A DNA stretch of 64,000 nt, taken from NCBI RefSeq assembly GCF_008274585.1, contig NZ_VTRT01000002.1, forward strand, positions 496,001-560,000, read 5' to 3'. Made by a program: the position numbers and the translations under genes. Shown piece after piece: positions 3,395-51,135 of this stretch; position 1 is the stretch's first letter; the number at the start of each line of letters is the position of its first letter. The notes beneath the pieces were generated by a model. It saw nothing but the letters and a program-made list of their open reading frames with translations, was not told the DNA's origin and ran no database searches. This DNA is from Pedobacter sp. BS3 (GTDB lineage: Bacteria; Bacteroidota; Bacteroidia; Sphingobacteriales; Sphingobacteriaceae).

Positions 3395-3712
3395 CGGTTA
3401 TTTAAAATACCTGCATATAAATATATGCAATTATTCTAAACGATATAAGAAAGTTTGATTAAAACTTATTGACAAAATCCGGCCGCAAGTATTGTGTAGT
3501 GCGTATGGAGTAGTGCGATGGCCTCACTCTAATCCTCTCCTCATTCTCTAAAGGAGTGCACGGACAAAAGAAAAAGAAACCGGGCTATGCTTCTCATCTT
3601 GTCTTTTGCTGCTATGCTCTTGTTTCTCTTTTGATAGTTCTGCCTGCAAATTATGATCTATCAGCCATTTTCCACCTTTTTACCGGAAGCTCTGCATTGA
3701 AACAACTGAACT
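3395..3712. other. Intergenic stretch without a recognisable gene
   Basis: These 318 bases separate the start of the sigma factor from the end of the sulfatase. I see no convincing reading frame. The stretch at 3533-3555 (cctctcctcattctctaaaggag) resembles, in degraded form, the palindrome that lies in frame inside fecR at 48753-48771. A weak inverted repeat, caaaagaaaaagaaac against gtttctcttttg, spans about 3552-3635. Confidence 0.4.
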
Positions 3713-5404: not shown

Positions 5405-6106
5405 TTAATCGTTCCGGTCGAGCAATTCACGCACTATTGCCGGAACGCCTGTCACGGCCGGTTGCTGTATCACCCGGAGTTCAGGGATGTGATCAATGCC
5501 TGGAACTACCGGATCAATCAGTATTTTTTCGGCCCGAACAGGTACCACGTCTGTTAATCCCGCGGCAGGATATACTTGCAAGGATGTACCGATCACCATA
5601 AAAATATCGGCCTCTGCCGCTATGCGTGCGGCTGTTTCAATCATCGGCACAGCTTCGCCGAACCACACTACATGCGGCCGCAGCTGCGAACCGAGCTCGC
5701 ATAACTCGCCCATTTTAAGCTCCCAGCCGTCTATCGGATAAGTTAGCCGGGGATCTTTTGATGATTGCGATCGTGTAATGATACCATGCAGATGAACAGT
5801 ATGCGACGAGCCGGCCCGTTCATGCAGATCATCAATATTTTGTGTGATAACGGTTACGTCATAACCGGCTTCCAGCCCGGCCAGGGCAATATGTGCCGCA
5901 TTGGGTTTTGCCTCCAGCACCGCCTTGCGCCGCTGGTTGTAAAACTCCTGAACCATTTCCGGGTTACGCTGCCAGGCTTCGGGCGTAGCCACATCGTACA
6001 CATTATAACCTTCCCACAAACCTCCGGCATCCCTGAACGTTTGTAAGCCGCTCCCGGCAGAGATGCCGGCGCCAGTTAATACCACGACCTTTTTCATGAC
6101 GGACAT
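5405..6106 (-). CDS. cobB: Sir2-family NAD-dependent protein deacylase (CobB-like)
   Basis: The 233-residue protein removes acyl groups from lysines, using NAD+. It carries GAGIS (12-16), TFRDAGGLW (23-31), QNIDDLH (89-95) and the catalytic His107 in VHLHG. Tyr56 and Arg59 (FYNQRR) match the Y-x2-R pair of class III sirtuins such as SIRT5 and CobB, which favours succinyl or malonyl lysine. The small domain between about 108 and 150 has only one cysteine where zinc-binding family members have four, so the structural zinc site appears lost. A second in-frame ATG at codon 4 is an equally possible start. It is cytoplasmic and monocistronic. Confidence 0.9.
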   Translation of the reverse strand: MSVMKKVVVLTGAGISAGSGLQTFRDAGGLWEGYNVYDVATPEAWQRNPEMVQEFYNQRRKAVLEAKPNAAHIALAGLEAGYDVTVITQNIDDLHERAGSSHTVHLHGIITRSQSSKDPRLTYPIDGWELKMGELCELGSQLRPHVVWFGEAVPMIETAARIAAEADIFMVIGTSLQVYPAAGLTDVVPVRAEKILIDPVVPGIDHIPELRVIQQPAVTGVPAIVRELLDRND

Positions 6107-6257: not shown

Positions 6258-6368
6258 TGGTGTAAGGCACAATACGCAGGTGAGAAACAAGACTATAGAT
6301 GCAAGAACCAGGACGGGGGTACAACGAAGCTCCATATTCCGCCAGTCGACGGAAGTGGGGTGAGGCTT

Positions 6369-7175
6369 CTAATTCACCACCGGGCATTTTTGGGTTACAA
6401 ACGTGTAGGTAATACCTATTACGGTAAAAAAATAGGTATCGCGTTTCCGGAAATCGCCACGCTGGGTAAGCGGAGCTCCGATATGATTTACTGATGGATC
6501 CGACAGTTTTTTTCTGATTGCGGTTAGCTGTGGCGCTGTACTTAATAGATCCGCAGTCGGGTATCTTCCGCTTACATCATCCAAATAGTCTGTATATGCT
6601 GTACGATAACCGATCTCGCCGGAGAGCGACCATTTACCGGCTATGTTATATTTTATACCTAACCCATAAGGTACGGTCAGCGTATAGTTGCGGTAAGGAT
6701 TTTCTACAGATTGTCCCTCGGTTCCGAGATATCTCAATTCATATTCCCTGCCATCCATTCTGGTTTTAGGATTAAAAAATACCCCTCCTACTCCTACAAA
6801 CAGGTACGGTGTATATATTTTCCGGCTCATGGAGGGCACATATTCAAAAAAATTGAATACCAGTTGAAGGCTTGCCTCTGTAATTGGCGAATAAAAGCTG
6901 AGGTTACGCTGGCGATACTGGGCGTTATCAGAAAGTGAATCGGCAGCTTGTATTTTACCGTGGGTAATGCCCAATTTCAAACCCCATATCGCGTTAAAGT
7001 TATATTGGATCATGCCACCAAAAGCCAGGTTATTCAGTTTATACGGTTTTACCGGATTAAGATCGCCCATGTACCCTGCGCCGCCGCCAAACACACCAAG
7101 CTCCCAGGTTTGAGCAGAGCAATACAGGCAGCAACATAGCAGGATTCCGGTAAGCAGCGGACTTTTAACACGCAT
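6369..7175 (-). CDS. DUF6089-type outer-membrane beta-barrel protein
   Basis: The 268-residue protein has a signal peptide ending in CCCLYCSAQ, then WELGVFGGGAGYMGDLNP, which is typical of the DUF6089 family, and alternating amphipathic strands to the C terminus. This points to a small outer-membrane barrel. Its function is unknown. It is the last gene of a tight four-gene run (alpha/beta hydrolase, CBS protein, NAD kinase, this gene) and starts 9 bases after NAD kinase. NAD kinase next to a DUF6089 gene is, as far as I recall, a conserved pairing in Bacteroidota. Confidence 0.8.
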   Translation of the reverse strand: MRVKSPLLTGILLCCCLYCSAQTWELGVFGGGAGYMGDLNPVKPYKLNNLAFGGMIQYNFNAIWGLKLGITHGKIQAADSLSDNAQYRQRNLSFYSPITEASLQLVFNFFEYVPSMSRKIYTPYLFVGVGGVFFNPKTRMDGREYELRYLGTEGQSVENPYRNYTLTVPYGLGIKYNIAGKWSLSGEIGYRTAYTDYLDDVSGRYPTADLLSTAPQLTAIRKKLSDPSVNHIGAPLTQRGDFRKRDTYFFTVIGITYTFVTQKCPVVN

Positions 7176-44362: not shown

Positions 44363-47300
44363 TTAAATTCCAATAACCAGGTTAACACCAAAGTTCCGCG
44401 TAGAAGGAAACTGACCAATTTCAAAACCCTGCGTAATATCCGTTCCGCTCAGCGTACCAAATTCAGGGTCGTACATTGGCCATTTAGACCAGATGTATAA
44501 ATCACGGCCATATATCCCGATGGTAGCTTTTTGCAAACGCAATTTTTTGACCAGTTTGGCTGAAAATGTATAATTCAGGCTGGCTTCACGGAATTTGACA
44601 AAATCGGTTGAATAGGTACTGCCCTCGGCATTATCTACGCCATACATCGACTGATAGAACGCATCAACATCATAAGCTATAACATCGTTTTTCCGATAGG
44701 TGCCGTCCCCATTGTCGATTACACCGTTACCAACAATACCATTGTACCTTCCGGGCAGAGTATTGGTTGTTTTCCCGGCCCTGGATAATACAGCATAGCT
44801 CATGGAATGGGCTACCCCACCAAATTGTGCATCAAACAACACATTTAGCCGGAATTGCTTATACCTGAACTGATTGTTCCATCCGGCTTTCCAGCGGGGT
44901 ATGGTATTTCCTAAATACTGTACATCAGAGCTGATCAAGGCATTACCGGTAGTAGCATTATACACTATCTGTCCATCCGGCGACCTTACAAAACCCCGGC
45001 CATATAAGGCATCCATACTGCCGCCAACCATAGCCACAATCTGCCCTCCGCCGGCAATGCCGGTTTGCAACACAACAGAGCTATCCGGTAGGTCCGCCAC
45101 CCTGTTTTTATTGGCAGAAAACGTCATGTTAGAGGCCCAGCTAAAGTTTTTGGTTATTACCGGTTTGCTGCTTAGCGCTATTTCTATGCCTCTGTTGGTT
45201 ATCTTTCCGGCATTAATAAGCAGCTTGGCATATCCCGACGAGCGATCGGCTACCCGTTGTAAGATCTGGTCTTTGGTGTTACCGGAATAAAGCGCCACAT
45301 CAACGCCTATCCGGCTTTTTAATAACCTGATGTCAGCTCCAACCTCGTATGTTGTTGTTTTCAGGGGCTTCAGATCAGGGTTAGCTAGCAACGAAGGATT
45401 CTGTAAGGCTCCGCTATACACGCTTCCCGGCGAAACATAATTAAAGGCCGTAAGATATGGGCTTGTCCCCCCACTTCCTACTACTGACGCGGAAGCCCGG
45501 AACTTCGCAAAGCTGATATAGTCCGGCAAACGAAAACGCTCTGATGCTACAAAGCTCAGACTGGCCGAAGGATAAAAGAAACCGGAATTGGCCGTGCGGT
45601 TTGCTGTTGCCAGCACACTGTTCCAGTCCTGACGGGCAGTCAAATCCAGATACAAATATCTTCTGTATTCCAAAGAGGCTAAACCATAGAAGCTGTTAAT
45701 AGCATATTTGCTTCTATACGGCCTTGTATCTAAGGGCCCTGCTGCATTAGCCATGGTATAAACGCCGGGATATATTAGAGAATCGGCCCGTACTTCGTCT
45801 TTATTATAATTGTTTCTCAGCATACTGCCACCGGCCGATATAGACAAATCAAACTCCCGGCTTATCTTTTTGGCATATTTCAAAAGAAAATCACTGCTTT
45901 GTTCCATCGAAAAAATAGACTGGGTACGGTAGCTGCCTTTCTGATAATAGGTACCGGCATCGTAAGGTCTTTTCTGAGCCCGCTGCTCCTCGACAAAATC
46001 AATGGATGTTCTTAGCTGCAAGCTCAGCTCTTTGGTGAAGTTATAAGTAGCCTGTACATTCCCGGTAAGTCCGTAACGGTTAGAACTGTTTAAATATTCA
46101 TAAGCAATGGCATATGGATTTTGCGGCTGCGTGCTAAACGGGTATTGTATAGCCACACCCTCCTGACCATATTCCCAATAATTTTTTAACCAGTTTATGT
46201 CTGCACTGGGTAGCCATGCCAAAGTCCAGTACATAATACCCTGATTACCATAACCAACCGAGGGAAGATTATCGCTCCATTTGTTGGTATAATTAATTTT
46301 AGAAGTAATGGTCAGTTTATCGCTCACTTTTGAATTTACAGCCAGAGCAACACTATTGCGCTTATAACCCGTATTGGGAATAATCCATTTGTTATTTGCA
46401 TTAGTAACAGAAAACCTGGCTGTAGTTTTGTCTGTTCCGCCATCAATACTTACCGAATTAGTAAAGGTTTGCCCTGTATTAAAATAGTCGCGTATCTGGT
46501 TGGTATAAGGAACCCAGGGTGTTCTTTCTGTTCCCTGCGCTCTTGTTACCGGATCATACTGATAAAATAGCTGACCTTCAAACCGTGGTCCATAAGCAGA
46601 ACTTGTACTACTGGTGTTAGCTCCATCTTCCGAAGCTTTATACGAGTAATAGGAAGCTCCACCTAATCCCTGCCCGTACTCATATTGAAAGTCGGGCCAC
46701 CTGTTCACTTCCTCCATAGACGAATTCGAACTGAACGTTATTCCAAGACCTTTCCTTTTGGGATTTCCTGACTTGGTAGTAATAATAATGGCGCCATTAG
46801 CACCCCGCTGGCCGTACAGTGCTGATGCGCCCGGCCCCTTTAAAACACTTACGCTTTCAATATCTTCGGGATTAATATCATCCAGCCCGCTTCCGTAATC
46901 GGCCGGCATATTTGCGCCATCAGTTCCGTTAATCGATTCGCCGCTAATAGCCGTACGGCGACCGCTCCCCTGGTTAATTACTACGCCATCTACCACAACA
47001 AGCGCCTCATTATCTCCGGTAAGATTATTCTCGCCCCTCAAAATAATTTTAATCGACCCCGTTGGCCCGCCGTTGGAGCGCACTAAATTTAGTCCTGCAA
47101 CTTTTCCGGATAAGGCATCAGTCCAGTTATTCGATAGCGCCTCTGTCAGATCTTCTCCCTTTATAGTAGAAACAGCATAACCCAGGGCTTTTTCTTCACG
47201 CTTAATACCCAACGCGGTTACTATCACGTTATCTAATACCTGTGAGTTCACTTTAAGGATTACAGATACATTACTTCGCCCTTTTACACTAATTTCCTGT

Positions 47301-47863
47301 GTAACATACCCGATATAAGATACTACCAGTATGGAATTTTCATTTGCTACCGTTATGGTAAATTCGCCTTTTGAGTTAGTAAGGGCTGCTTTACTTGAGG
47401 TCCCTTTCACCATAATGGAGGCTCCTATCAACGGTTCACCTTTTTCATCCATAACTTTACCGCTTATGGGTACAGCCGCAGGTACTGCGGCCTTACTGCC
47501 CCGGCGAATGGTTACCGTTTTATACTCATCATTAAATAATATTTCTACTCGTTGCCCTTCAAAACATTTGTGTAACACCTCATCCAGTGCCACATTATCC
47601 ATTTTTAAATTAAGCGGCCTGATACTTTTTATAAGCTCTGCATCAGTAATAAAGGTATAGCCGGTACGCTCAGTTAATCGCTGAAAAACCTGCTTAATAG
47701 ATGCATTCTTTACACTGATACTTACCTGCTGGGCAAGGCCGGTTGCGCTAACCTGCAAAAAGGCAACCATCAGTACAATAAAACTCAGTTTCATAATAAT
47801 GAGGAATTTTAAGGAGCAACAGGAATTCTTCCCGCATCGTAATGCCGTAAACTTTTTATACAT
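44363..47863 (-). CDS. SusC/RagA TonB-dependent transporter with STN signalling domain
   Basis: The 1166-residue outer-membrane protein has an extended signal peptide (a second start, MKLSFIVLMVAFLQVSATGL at codon 24, would also work). An STN domain follows (about 48-118, VKNASIKQVFQRLTERTGYT), then a carboxypeptidase-D-like domain (about 132-205, GKVMDEKGEPLIGASIMVKG), the plug (about 225-350, SVLKGPGASALYGQRGANG) and a 22-strand barrel to the end. The STN domain contacts the FecR protein encoded upstream, so the system senses its own transport substrate. It pairs with the SusD lipoprotein. Confidence 0.95.
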   Translation of the reverse strand: MYKKFTALRCGKNSCCSLKFLIIMKLSFIVLMVAFLQVSATGLAQQVSISVKNASIKQVFQRLTERTGYTFITDAELIKSIRPLNLKMDNVALDEVLHKCFEGQRVEILFNDEYKTVTIRRGSKAAVPAAVPISGKVMDEKGEPLIGASIMVKGTSSKAALTNSKGEFTITVANENSILVVSYIGYVTQEISVKGRSNVSVILKVNSQVLDNVIVTALGIKREEKALGYAVSTIKGEDLTEALSNNWTDALSGKVAGLNLVRSNGGPTGSIKIILRGENNLTGDNEALVVVDGVVINQGSGRRTAISGESINGTDGANMPADYGSGLDDINPEDIESVSVLKGPGASALYGQRGANGAIIITTKSGNPKRKGLGITFSSNSSMEEVNRWPDFQYEYGQGLGGASYYSYKASEDGANTSSTSSAYGPRFEGQLFYQYDPVTRAQGTERTPWVPYTNQIRDYFNTGQTFTNSVSIDGGTDKTTARFSVTNANNKWIIPNTGYKRNSVALAVNSKVSDKLTITSKINYTNKWSDNLPSVGYGNQGIMYWTLAWLPSADINWLKNYWEYGQEGVAIQYPFSTQPQNPYAIAYEYLNSSNRYGLTGNVQATYNFTKELSLQLRTSIDFVEEQRAQKRPYDAGTYYQKGSYRTQSIFSMEQSSDFLLKYAKKISREFDLSISAGGSMLRNNYNKDEVRADSLIYPGVYTMANAAGPLDTRPYRSKYAINSFYGLASLEYRRYLYLDLTARQDWNSVLATANRTANSGFFYPSASLSFVASERFRLPDYISFAKFRASASVVGSGGTSPYLTAFNYVSPGSVYSGALQNPSLLANPDLKPLKTTTYEVGADIRLLKSRIGVDVALYSGNTKDQILQRVADRSSGYAKLLINAGKITNRGIEIALSSKPVITKNFSWASNMTFSANKNRVADLPDSSVVLQTGIAGGGQIVAMVGGSMDALYGRGFVRSPDGQIVYNATTGNALISSDVQYLGNTIPRWKAGWNNQFRYKQFRLNVLFDAQFGGVAHSMSYAVLSRAGKTTNTLPGRYNGIVGNGVIDNGDGTYRKNDVIAYDVDAFYQSMYGVDNAEGSTYSTDFVKFREASLNYTFSAKLVKKLRLQKATIGIYGRDLYIWSKWPMYDPEFGTLSGTDITQGFEIGQFPSTRNFGVNLVIGI

Positions 47864-47915
47864 TTGGTTAGGATTAAATTTTATTGGTTGTCGTAATCAA
47901 TTTTAATATTATCCT

Positions 47916-47933
47916 CCAGCAGCCTGCTGCTGG
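47916..47933. promoter_or_regulatory. Hairpin between fecR and the SusC gene
   Basis: ccagcag and ctgctgg (47916-47922 and 47927-47933) form a 7-bp GC-rich stem with loop cctg in the 125-base spacer upstream of the SusC gene. It could be an attenuator or end the fecR transcript. There is no TAnnTTTG box here, as expected if the cognate ECF sigma drives the SusC gene. Confidence 0.4.
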
Positions 47934-47988
47934 TAAACCGGGGGTGCGCCAACACTCCTGGTTTTACTGATAATTATTTTTGGTCGTG

Positions 47989-49245
47989 TTAATTATTAGC
48001 TATAACAGTTATCCTCCTTTCGCCCTTTTCAATGCCTCCCGGCGTAGTTTTAAAATGAATTTTATTGGTTAATTCCATGGTCTTTAACAGGTTATCCAGG
48101 TTCCTTGACCGCAGATAATTTCCCTGGAAAGCAATATCCGACATATCCCCCTGATACGCTACATCAAAATTGTACCAGCGTGACAGTTTCTTCATAATAT
48201 CACGGATATTTTCATTATTGAAGATAAAATAACCGTTTTTCCAGGCAATGATATCATCCGCGTCATCCGGAGTTGTTATTTCTACTCCCGGCTTACGTAA
48301 GCTGGTAACGGCGGCCTGTCCGGGCTTTAAGATGATATCTCTAAAGCCGCTGTTTGTTGAAGATACACGTACCTTCCCTTCCAGTAAGGTTGTTTGGGTC
48401 GTCTCATCATCATGGTAAGCGCTAATGTTAAAATGTGTACCCAAAACCTCCACTTCTTGTGTGGCTGTAACCACGATAAACGGTATCCACGCCTCTTCCC
48501 GACCCTCTCCTGAGGAAAGGGAGTTGGAACTGTGGGATTTCCCCCCTTTGGGGGGATTAAGGGGGGCTTTTGCCACCTCAAAGTAAGCCTCTCCACTTAA
48601 TTCCACCCGGCGCTCACCACCGCTGAATTTGGACGGATAGCGCAATGACGAAGCGGAATTCAACCAAACCTTGGTGCCATCCGGTAGCTGAAGCTGGTAT
48701 TGCCCGCCACGGGGAACGGTTAGCGTGTTGTGTATTGTAGCCTCTCCCCCCGCCCTCTCCAAAGGAGAGGGAGCCGTTTTATAAGATAACTGCCCGTCGG
48801 CCTCCTTGGTGATTTTTGTACCGGACTGTTCGGCCAACTCGCCATTCGTGGCATCGGTCAGGTTGATTTTACTGCCATCGCCTAAGGTCAGGATGGCTTT
48901 ATTACTGCCGGGCAGAATGGCAGCAGCAATTTTAGCCGGGGCCTTAACCGGTTTTTGACTTGACGTATGATCATTCGTATAAAAATATAACCCAATGGCA
49001 ACAAACAATAAAATAGCTGCTGCAGAAGCAATACGGGGCCAGTAATTTATTCTGCGAATGTTTCTAGGCAATGGAAGCCGGCTGTAGATAATTTTTTGTA
49101 CCTGTTCATAATCCGGCTCATCAGGCATTGGTTCATGACTGTCCACAGCCTGATTATACCAGCTCTCAACAAGCCGCTTCTCCTCTGGTGAGCACTTATT
49201 TTCCAGGTACTTATTTAGCAATTCCTGCGCCTTTTCTTTCGTCAT
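47989..49245 (-). CDS. FecR-family anti-sigma regulator with in-frame palindromic inserts
   Basis: The 418-residue protein has a cytoplasmic N-terminal part, one transmembrane helix (about 69-88), the FecR domain (about 170-300, TVPRGGQYQLQLPDGTKVWL and SGEAYFEV) and a C-terminal DUF4974/STN-like domain (IIAWKNGYFIFNNENIRDIM). It relays the SusC state to the adjacent ECF sigma factor. Two segments foreign to the family interrupt the fold: residues 158-169 (PSPLERAGGEA) and about 227-253 (APLNPPKGGKSH to GREEAW). Both are encoded by GC-rich palindromes. The frame stays open, so the protein may still work. Confidence 0.92.
   Translation of the reverse strand: MTKEKAQELLNKYLENKCSPEEKRLVESWYNQAVDSHEPMPDEPDYEQVQKIIYSRLPLPRNIRRINYWPRIASAAAILLFVAIGLYFYTNDHTSSQKPVKAPAKIAAAILPGSNKAILTLGDGSKINLTDATNGELAEQSGTKITKEADGQLSYKTAPSPLERAGGEATIHNTLTVPRGGQYQLQLPDGTKVWLNSASSLRYPSKFSGGERRVELSGEAYFEVAKAPLNPPKGGKSHSSNSLSSGEGREEAWIPFIVVTATQEVEVLGTHFNISAYHDDETTQTTLLEGKVRVSSTNSGFRDIILKPGQAAVTSLRKPGVEITTPDDADDIIAWKNGYFIFNNENIRDIMKKLSRWYNFDVAYQGDMSDIAFQGNYLRSRNLDNLLKTMELTNKIHFKTTPGGIEKGERRITVIANN
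48487..48567. repeat. In-frame palindromic insert 1 in fecR
   Basis: About 81 bases with ccctctcctgaggaaaggg-like and cccccctttgggggg (48541-48555) palindromes sit between codons for FEVAK and IPFIVV, which are adjacent or nearly so in ordinary FecR proteins. The insert is a multiple of three and keeps the frame open. The resulting peptide is rich in Pro, Gly, Ser and Lys. Confidence 0.75.
48742..48778. repeat. In-frame palindromic insert 2 in fecR
   Basis: The perfect hairpin ccctctcc-aaa-ggagaggg (48753-48771) lies in a 37-base GC-rich stretch that codes for PSPLERAGGEA, between the YKTA segment and the TIHNTL start of the FecR domain. Together with insert 1 it gives this gene two mobile-palindrome-like scars. 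Confidence 0.75.
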
Positions 49246-49320
49246 AATTGGCCGGCATTAATGCCTGTTTATAGCTAAGACAATTTGATGCGGTAATGGT
49301 AGACATCGGAATTAATTTTT

Positions 49321-49450
49321 TTTTAATGACAGTTGATACAGTGGATAGTAGACAATGGACAGTTGACAATGGCTAATGGCTAGGTGGAAGGTTTAAGGCG
49401 TAAGGCAAAAAACGAACAACGAGAAACGAATGACAAAAAACGAACAACAA
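49321..49450. repeat. Short-word tandem repeats between sigma factor and fecR
   Basis: Two word families follow each other: gacagttgatacagtggatagtagacaatggacag (about 49325-49382) and aaaaaacgaacaacgagaaacgaatgac (about 49405-49450). The first uses almost the same words as the repeat at 6175-6257. Together they fill the spacer of 214 bases between the two regulatory genes. Confidence 0.65.
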
Positions 49451-49459
49451 TGCAACCAG

Positions 49460-50026
49460 TCAAAACAATAACGTAAAAAAGGATGATATTTGAGCCTTGA
49501 GTACCTTTAACGCCCTGTTAATGGTTTTTTTAACTGTATGGTCGGTGATGCTCAGTTCTTCGGCAATGGCTTTATGCGAGAGGCCTGACTTTCGGCTCAT
49601 TTCAAATATTTCACGCATTTTGGGTGGCAAATTGGCTATTTCCTGTTCAATGCGCTCCAGCAGGTCATGATATACTACCTGCTCGTCGGTGTTGTATTCG
49701 CCTTGTTCGGCAAACCTGGCTAACGACAACAGGTAAGTATCCTTCAACCGGCTGCGGTTGATTTGATTTAACGTCTGATTCCTTACTGCCGTATACAGGT
49801 ATGATTTTATCGAGGTTGTTAGTATAAGCCCGCCCGATTTTTTCCAAAGCGTAGTAAAAATATCCTGCACTACATCCATAGCCTCATCGTCATCGCGAAG
49901 CATTTTGCGGGCATGCGCATACAATACAGCCCAATACCGGTTGTAAATAGCGGTAAAAGCAGCCTCATTGCCTTCGCACAAAAAAGCAACCAGTTCCTGA
50001 TCGGTGAGAGCACTGTATGCTGACAT
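49460..50026 (-). CDS. ECF RNA polymerase sigma factor (FecI-like)
   Basis: The 188-residue sigma factor has region 2 (about 12-85, FTAIYNRYWAVLYAHARKML and DVVQDIFTTLWKK) and region 4 (about 125-178, NLPPKMREIFEMSRKSGLSH). It is the first gene of the FecR/SusC/SusD locus and probably controls SusC expression once FecR signals. Unlike the sigma factor at 2801-3394, it keeps its regulatory partners. Confidence 0.93.
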   Translation of the reverse strand: MSAYSALTDQELVAFLCEGNEAAFTAIYNRYWAVLYAHARKMLRDDDEAMDVVQDIFTTLWKKSGGLILTTSIKSYLYTAVRNQTLNQINRSRLKDTYLLSLARFAEQGEYNTDEQVVYHDLLERIEQEIANLPPKMREIFEMSRKSGLSHKAIAEELSITDHTVKKTINRALKVLKAQISSFFTLLF

Positions 50027-51135
50027 GAAGGTTAGTTATAACCACGAAGTTATAAATAAATATAAGATTACAAAAGATACTGGTTTTTAAAAAGCAAACA
50101 GTCTATAAAGTCCTTAGACTATTCTGACCACCCCAAGGGATGCCCCATCGTAGCTAACAGACGCTTCGAAAGAGTTCTGCCTGACTGCAAATGGTTTTAC
50201 AATCTCATCGGTAATAATAAACTAAGGGATGTAAACGATTTTCTTCACTTACATATTGCGATAAAAATCGCAGAACTCATACATCCGCGTTACAAACTAT
50301 CATGTATCACAATTAATTTGTCTTTTCCTCCCCCTACCCCCTCCAGCGGCTATCGTGTGTACACAAATATTATTTCGCTCTATGCCGCGGGGCATCCTAC
50401 TTTTGAGGCATCAAAAGTAGGCAAAAATGCTTGTCAATCCCACCAGGAGCCTTTATCCACATAGCCTGCGCTCATCAAAAAAACAGCGGCGCTTCGTTTT
50501 GTTCGTCAATACAGAACGAACGTTTTATGCAAACTTGTTCACAAAACCACTACATTTAAGGCTTGGCTGTGCCAAAGATACTACTCTGCAACTGTTTTTT
50601 TAATTTATCCGGCTCTTGGGGATTGACGACGTACTTCGGAAAATCTCCTACTTTTATCAAAGTAACCTGACGATTTGCTTAGTGGGCATACCGCATATAT
50701 AACCACTGGCTTCATGGCTAAGAGTGATAGGATGTGTATACATAATAGCTACCTCGCTGGCGCATCGCGTGTCGCGTGTGCCTTTCTTGTATGTTCTTCA
50801 GTCCGGCTCATGGCCCGCCGGCTGGCTGATTCTTTGATGAGCCAAAAACCACCCCCTTGTGATTATTCCAAACACCCAACTTTGTCGGAATAACAGGCTT
50901 GAGAGTGAGGATGGCTAAAAATTCTCGCCATCCCACTCACAGAATCTTTAGACAAAGTGTAACCCAGAGATCTCTACCAGAAGAACTTAGGAAAGAGATT
51001 TTACTTCGCGTTTGCTTTGCGATATCTTCCTATGATCGTCTTAATAATGGTACTTTCTGACTTTTTAGACACATCTACAACTAAAGCATAAGGCTATCCA
51101 GATATGCAGTTTTTATGCACTATATCGAAGTGGCG
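50027..51135. other. 1.1-kb stretch without a convincing gene
   Basis: I find no reading frame with protein-like composition and no family match. It contains the palindromes at 50382-50395 (atgccgcggggcat) and 50396-50421, several short C-rich runs, and near 51054-51069 the sequence gactttttagacacat. That matches the ends of the family B elements, but no partner end is seen. It may be decayed mobile DNA. Confidence 0.4.
50396..50421. repeat. 11-bp-stem palindrome in the gene-free stretch
   Basis: cctacttttga and tcaaaagtagg pair perfectly around the loop ggca, directly after the smaller palindrome atgcc-gcgg-ggcat (50382-50395). It could be a terminator, but no gene ends near it. Confidence 0.6.

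Follow-up and report, generated by a model that had tools for sequence, protein, structure and literature searches.

Inteins with homing endonucleases hold an endonuclease open reading frame in frame in essential genes, at repeated positions, and as regards the protein-coding palindromic repeats of Rickettsia, the mover is, to our knowledge, unclear. The Rickettsia palindromic elements (RPEs) of Ogata et al. are described as short palindromic repeats of several families lying in frame in unrelated genes (PMC10969869, PMC3733652). The REP/RAYT (REPtron) and TIRYT (TIRtron) systems, as presented in PMC3733652, comprise hairpin repeats that are mostly intergenic, with some in open reading frames, including those of tRNA synthetases, and the TIRs of TIRYT genes carry the motif GGGGWSAS. 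The ShiLan domain, according to PMC11855218, conceals an HNH endonuclease, which is encoded in a different frame and has a start and a stop of its own.

The window analysed here, a stretch of 64,000 nucleotides from a Bacteroidota-like genome, contains a fecR-type anti-sigma factor gene (47989..49245, minus strand) with two inserts, which are probably non-autonomous pieces of a DUF559-associated, inverted-repeat mobile element that enters genes in frame. Common to the RPEs and the inserts is a palindromic repeat in frame in unrelated protein genes that leaves the host gene open; the enzyme gene flanked by repeats, the intragenic copies and the GGGGWSAS-fitting tail GGGGTGAG are common with the REPtrons and TIRtrons, and the coding-gene insert without a host-frame stop, the endonuclease and the lack of a splicing domain with ShiLan. 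However, the ends seen here bound, unlike those of RPEs, a DUF559 endonuclease in the full-length members, in a Bacteroidota-like genome; unlike in REPtrons and TIRtrons, the enzyme between the ends is DUF559 instead of a Y1 transposase and full elements are found in frame inside host genes; and, unlike in ShiLan, DUF559 is in the host frame with hairpin inverted repeats as bounds. The resemblance to RPEs, proposed by the initial annotation without a DUF559 parent, is a fair description of the mode of working: the likeness is one of mode of insertion, by which the inserts are set beside the RPEs descriptively.

The window fecR is an open frame of 418 codons (418 aa) carrying FecR and FecR_C domains (PF04773, E 1.5e-16; PF16344, E 1.4e-18), flanked by the genes for a sigma-70-type (ECF-like) factor and a TonB-dependent receptor; the nearest matches of its product come from Mucilaginibacter, Pedobacter and others, and the top Foldseek match is the Parabacteroides distasonis structure 4m0h, putatively an anti-sigma factor. 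Two GC-rich hairpin inserts, lying between codons and keeping the frame open, had been annotated in it, and both are borne out by the open frame, the paralogue alignment and the hairpins, each of which is present and perfect (48753-48771, with 8-bp arms and a 3-nt loop; 48541-48555, with 6-bp arms and 7 pairs in the fold). Insert 1 (about 48740..48775, minus strand, reading APSPLERAGGEA) is a solo family-A (right-end) element, to which the covariance model R1 responds with E 3.2e-13 at 48737-48785, this copy being among the 31 from which R1 was built. Insert 2 exists as annotated in kind, but is longer, at 77 bp, and has two hairpins: it is a two-ended composite (48491..48567, minus strand, GCC...GGC, reading APLNPPKGGKSHSSNSLSSGEGREEA) of a family-B left end (48541..48567, minus strand; hairpin CCCCCCTTTGGGGGG plus a tail, plus strand ATTAAGGGGGGC), a spacer and a family-A right end, whose hairpin at 48503..48521 (minus strand, one mismatch) had been missed. 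R1 matches it with E 8.8e-10 at 48488-48535, a copy also in the R1 training set. The comparison with homologues proposed for fixing the borders succeeded for insert 2, which as read from the sequence extends from 48567 (GCC) to 48491 (GAGGC), but less surely for insert 1, because homologue length varies there.

The window fecR has 42 residues between two anchor motifs versus 18-19 in 69 of the 76 homologues that were readable among 80 loci of other Bacteroidota, the remaining 7 having 23-28. The possibility, raised at the outset, that homologues possess the same segments without palindromic DNA is not borne out in 69 of the 76 but has a counterpart, which counts in part against the initial annotation, in five (L078, L080, L087, L088, L138), with shorter extra residues in the insert-2 loop and no R1 element; in L089 and L102 the extra residues belong to the next loop. 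R1 finds no element in the FecR loci of the 80 relatives (401,697 bases, E<=0.01). The family-A pattern (<=2 mismatches) has 2 sites in the window versus a mean of 0.06 and a largest count of 1 in 100 shuffles, and the family-B pattern (<=3 mismatches) has 1 versus 0.00. The folding energies of the hairpins alone are ordinary for their composition (z -1.55 and -1.20), and therefore it is the repetition, not the fold, that constitutes the evidence. In the AlphaFold2 model of FecR (mean pLDDT 85.9), both inserts are predicted to be low-confidence loops between strands, in line with the initial expectation: residues 161-170 of the insert 1 region (pLDDT 68) between strands 152-157 and 172-177, and residues 231-250 of the insert 2 region (pLDDT 50-55) between strands 212-223 and 256-259. 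As regards FecR signalling, the simplest expectation would be a tolerated loop. The inserts are genuine, occur repeatedly and are shared with essential genes, and an assembly error behind them is unlikely, because the same repeat is found in frame in several unrelated genes.

The family-A hairpin CCCTCTCCnnnGGAGAGGG, in most cases with a GGGGtGAGGC tail after it, is found with <=1 mismatch at 35 sites of the genome, versus 0 for the reversed control; 31 aligned copies, the sole source of R1 and all from this genome, consist of the hairpin and a one-sided tail GGGGTGAGGC, and the R1 scan of the genome gives 95 matches at E<=1, many of them weak. According to a simple codon-usage gene caller of our own, used without annotation, 25 of the 35 sites are between genes, 9 inside open genes, namely fecR (6), leuS, argC and pheS, and 1 is doubtful; two more in-gene copies, one in fecR and one in leuS, appear at two mismatches, and an element near an open reading frame start (L063) was left out of the in-gene count because that start is uncertain. 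All 11 in-gene copies checked sit in one open frame (420 bases examined), reading SLSxGEG or similar in 7 and SPLER or similar in 4; in the consensus, the third sense frame has a stop and all three antisense frames are open. The consensus of the 31 copies has neither the GTAG nor the CGTC tag of REPs, and nothing in 47000-50500 matched Rfam at E<=1. Elsewhere in the window, a probable dispersed family-A copy lies between genes at 6325..6369 (plus strand; R1 E 0.019), with open reading frames ending at 6106 and beginning at 6369, and the degraded relative annotated at 3533-3555 is weakly supported as a possible degraded copy (3518..3591, minus strand), with a weak R1 match (E 0.14) and a fold no better than shuffles (z -0.24). 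The family-B pattern has 5 genome matches, all in fecR genes at the insert-2 site, so that spread among paralogues by recombination is possible; in a family-wide search of 301 genomes it is present in 14, spanning 7 of 25 genera, this genome included. Of the 13 matches outside this genome, two are in-frame copies within truA and a gene of the TIGR02757 family, and another two have DUF559 in the vicinity (L182, L183).

Some features of the dispersed copies were seen in passing. Four family-A hairpins of this genome (C1:1131681, C1:1229831, C22:392099, C23:148322) have ~27-34 extra loop bases with a sequence in common, as though another small element had inserted there. By eye, many intergenic copies (L041, L046, L049, L050, L053, L055-L057, L059) follow a shared stretch like ACATAGAAGCAAGAAACAAGATA, which may belong to a larger unit, and several intergenic copies stand directly before predicted start codons, in the direction of the gene.

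The search for the same palindromes in other coding genes, suggested by the initial annotation, was positive for leuS, argC, pheS, a carbamoyltransferase gene, whose best match is N-acetylornithine carbamoyltransferase, below the curated cut-off, and metH. In pheS, the copy is a clean 10-residue insertion versus PDB 4p71 and 2rhq; in argC, it corresponds to about 6 extra residues versus 8afu and to no net insertion versus 1vkn, two further possible argC remnants being excluded from the counts. The leuS alignment of 30 loci (29 relatives and this genome) presents both occupied and empty sites. At site 1, L270 (G009) and L274 (G305) hold DUF559, L267 (G014) has a two-ended miniature, and this genome has a longer segment that includes a right end; other extra residues occur in 4 of the 30 loci and a short linker in 22. 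Site 2, covered in 29 loci, is occupied by DUF559 in L266 (G013), by a miniature in L267, by a right end in this genome and by a right-end-like match in L272; 2 loci have other extra residues there and 23 a short linker.

DUF559 is a Vsr-like endonuclease of the PD-(D/E)XK kind. The long leuS inserts, which came up without any enzyme search, are in frame between inverted family-A-type repeats, and were identified as DUF559 (PF04480) by Pfam in L266 and L274 (E 3.9e-33 and 4e-35) and by tblastn in L270. The Pfam annotation of the L266 and L274 inserts is limited to DUF559 and REase_MTES_1575, with no Hint/intein domain. Common to inteins is the in-frame endonuclease reading frame at repeated positions of essential genes; the elements differ from inteins in that no splicing domain was found and in that the nuclease-free short forms would remain as peptides. 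In the metH of this genome, a DUF559 insert flanked by an inverted pair of repeats of this family occupies, in frame, the linker between the cap and cobalamin domains and retains the FITDL and EIDGLIH stretches, which we take to hold the catalytic residues. Other genomes also have DUF559 as a free-standing gene with such repeats on both sides (L183), and on a Pseudanabaena galeata plasmid an Eco57I-like methylase gene contains it in frame, between ends built in the same way (tail CCCTCACCCCCA, hairpin CCCCTCTCC...GGAGAGGGG).

Inverted repeats around DUF559 were assessed at 19 testable loci, L182 being outside the set: 12 scored 0/300 shuffles, 3 more 3-8/300, and 4 exceeded 8/300, namely the own metH element (56/300), whose ends were read by eye, the phage locus L281 (126/300), Azospirillum L289 (297/300) and Sinorhizobium L291 (239/300). 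Control placements at the same loci reached 0/100 shuffles in 1 of 112 and <=2/100 in 2 of 112. The plasmid and phage loci, 14 in number and none of them found by way of the repeat, were hand-chosen out of 43 records with a match, 39 from plasmids and 4 from phages, some for a long match and the rest for phylum spread, and therefore the fraction of 11 out of 14 with flanking inverted repeats (9 at 0/300, 2 at 3-8/300) is no census. For other phyla, the 13 plasmid DUF559 loci, without L281, were searched with R1, and 6 of them match (L278, L282, L284, L287, L288, L289). In the Synechocystis locus L278, the host reading does not keep a single frame through the element; harmlessness is therefore no general rule.

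The link between DUF559 and the repeats is strong as an association; that the element moves, and that DUF559 drives this mobility, is inferred. The element would move by means of a mobilising cut made by DUF559, each of its ends being composed of a GC-rich hairpin and an outer tail (GCCTCACC... / ...GGTGAGGC), with a stop-free frame of the endonuclease between the ends in the full-length members; the fecR inserts would then represent one solo end and one two-ended miniature copy. The ends have open hydrophilic frames, so that, where they enter a loop or linker in the right phase, the host protein would still be made with a peptide or the whole endonuclease domain inside; splicing would not be needed and has not been seen, and the insert would stay in the mature protein. 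The location of most repeat copies (25/35) between genes is a point against this reading. The interpretation of the initial annotation is supported, and palindromic repeats of the RPE kind acquire here a candidate nuclease-carrying parent, present in frame in essential enzymes, which opens the origin and the mobility of these repeats to testing. A role is also proposed for DUF559, a widespread domain of unknown function, and the inserts show how mobile DNA could supply working proteins with additional loops and domains.

An unlikely alternative is that the repeats are REP-like and owe their movement to a RAYT/TIRYT-type Y1 (tyrosine) transposase, with DUF559 as a frequent passenger, as might be suggested by the tail GGGGTGAG, which fits the motif of the TIRYT-gene TIRs as given in PMC3733652, and by three Y1_Tnp matches in the genome. 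However, by the REPtron/TIRtron criterion the family-A repeats flank no Y1 gene, there being no family-A hairpin (<=3 mismatches) in any of the three Y1_Tnp stretches of this genome, of 3.2-3.3 kb each, which leaves RAYT unsupported as the mover here; two RAYT-like stretches have other flanking palindromes by eye, and the three long leuS inserts, found independently of the enzyme, contain DUF559. The two stretches, L163 (G000:C25:189705-189902) and L164 (G000:C22:66028-66246), are short Y1 genes of RAYT-like length, each situated, by eye, between its own distinct palindromic repeats, which are unrelated to the fecR inserts.

It is quite unlikely that one or more old insertions in a single fecR were followed by duplication and gene conversion among the paralogues, the loop being merely tolerant. 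The genome has 33 PF04773 rows, some of which are two pieces of one gene, and 30 paralogues were aligned, with the fragment L038 left out: the loop after YFEVAK is filled by the composite in 6, decayed in L034 and with an altered right hairpin in L036 and L058f, and by a KKVEGGKAEGKRV-like filler in 5, and is unfilled in 19. The restriction of family B to fecR in this genome speaks for such a history, as do these other fillers, the short inserts in 5 of the 76 homologues, and the residues that the carriers have in common after the insert. However, in a tree made without the insert columns, although poorly resolved (5 of 27 inner branches starred), neither the composite carriers (AU p 4.7e-7) nor those of the other filler (6.7e-7) are monophyletic, and two sister pairs have different fillers, L030, the sister of the window fecR, carrying the KKVEGGKAEGKRV-like one. 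In favour of the mobile element, the left end of the window composite is identical to that of L058f in 33/33 bases and to that of L033 in 32/33, whereas downstream third positions match far less among carriers. Gene conversion was considered in view of an unusual likeness among the carriers in the 20 codons that follow insert 2 (0/5000 random sets equal, in a test with 10 of the 19 non-carriers, the 9 most divergent being omitted). The likeness is at the residue level and absent at synonymous sites, the third positions of same-residue codons just downstream matching in 46% among carriers; since there is no synonymous-site excess, a recent conversion of the fecR flanks was set aside. The same repeat family is, moreover, present in leuS, pheS, argC and metH. 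Insertion by the DUF559-associated element alone does not predict the downstream residue likeness.

No empty allele of the window fecR was found, the sole other genome of the genus having one good FecR match, 40% identical. This best FecR (L165, G001:C12:268739-269761) is itself extended in that loop, by a longer filler of its own, RDVMTGQNGRQVKKR, and together with the five homologues with other extra residues it means that the insert-2 loop tolerates insertions of other kinds too. The second, purine-rich filler like KKVEGGKAEGKRV, in the same fecR loop of L024, L025, L027, L030 and L031, has similar DNA elsewhere in the genome, e.g., at G000:C25:27187-27212; its genome matches at <=3 mismatches (11 + 9) are weaker evidence of dispersal because the reversed control also matches (3 + 1).

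Removal of the inserts at the RNA or protein level, as an unrecognised intron, intein or translational bypass, is highly implausible, since, although the left and right ends are inverted repeats that could pair and a weak DUF559-like match (E 3e-6) overlies a phage hint domain protein gene, if on the opposite strand, the 11 in-gene copies keep one open frame over 420 bases, which removal would not require, solo ends lack a pairing partner, and the two leuS inserts scanned have no intein domain by Pfam. The match concerned is by tblastn, in L281 (Vibrio phage MG592631.1), and the hint domain protein gene itself matches an intein splicing profile.

More tentatively than the reading of the fecR inserts as pieces of the DUF559-associated element, DUF559 might be the engine of widespread mobile elements, in Bacteroidota-like genomes and on plasmids of Cyanobacteriota, Deinococcota and Alphaproteobacteria, that are bounded by hairpin inverted repeats, home to preferred sites in essential or paralogous genes and are translated there as an unspliced domain, while their ends proliferate in the REP/MITE manner and feed new loops, such as those of FecR; on balance, we would not yet count on this broader generalisation. 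Across several bacterial phyla, similar pieces border the gene of DUF559, a little-studied DNA-cutting enzyme, and this is suggestive of a widespread mobile element hiding in working genes. Judged by titles and the beginnings of abstracts, with most subscription papers outside the scope, the literature on DUF559, COG2852 and PF04480 gave no link to mobile elements. Among the plasmids, free DUF559 genes with inverted repeats were also seen at different points of the hpa cluster in Deinococcus (L285, L286, L288) and between sufB and sufC in Sphingomonas (L287).
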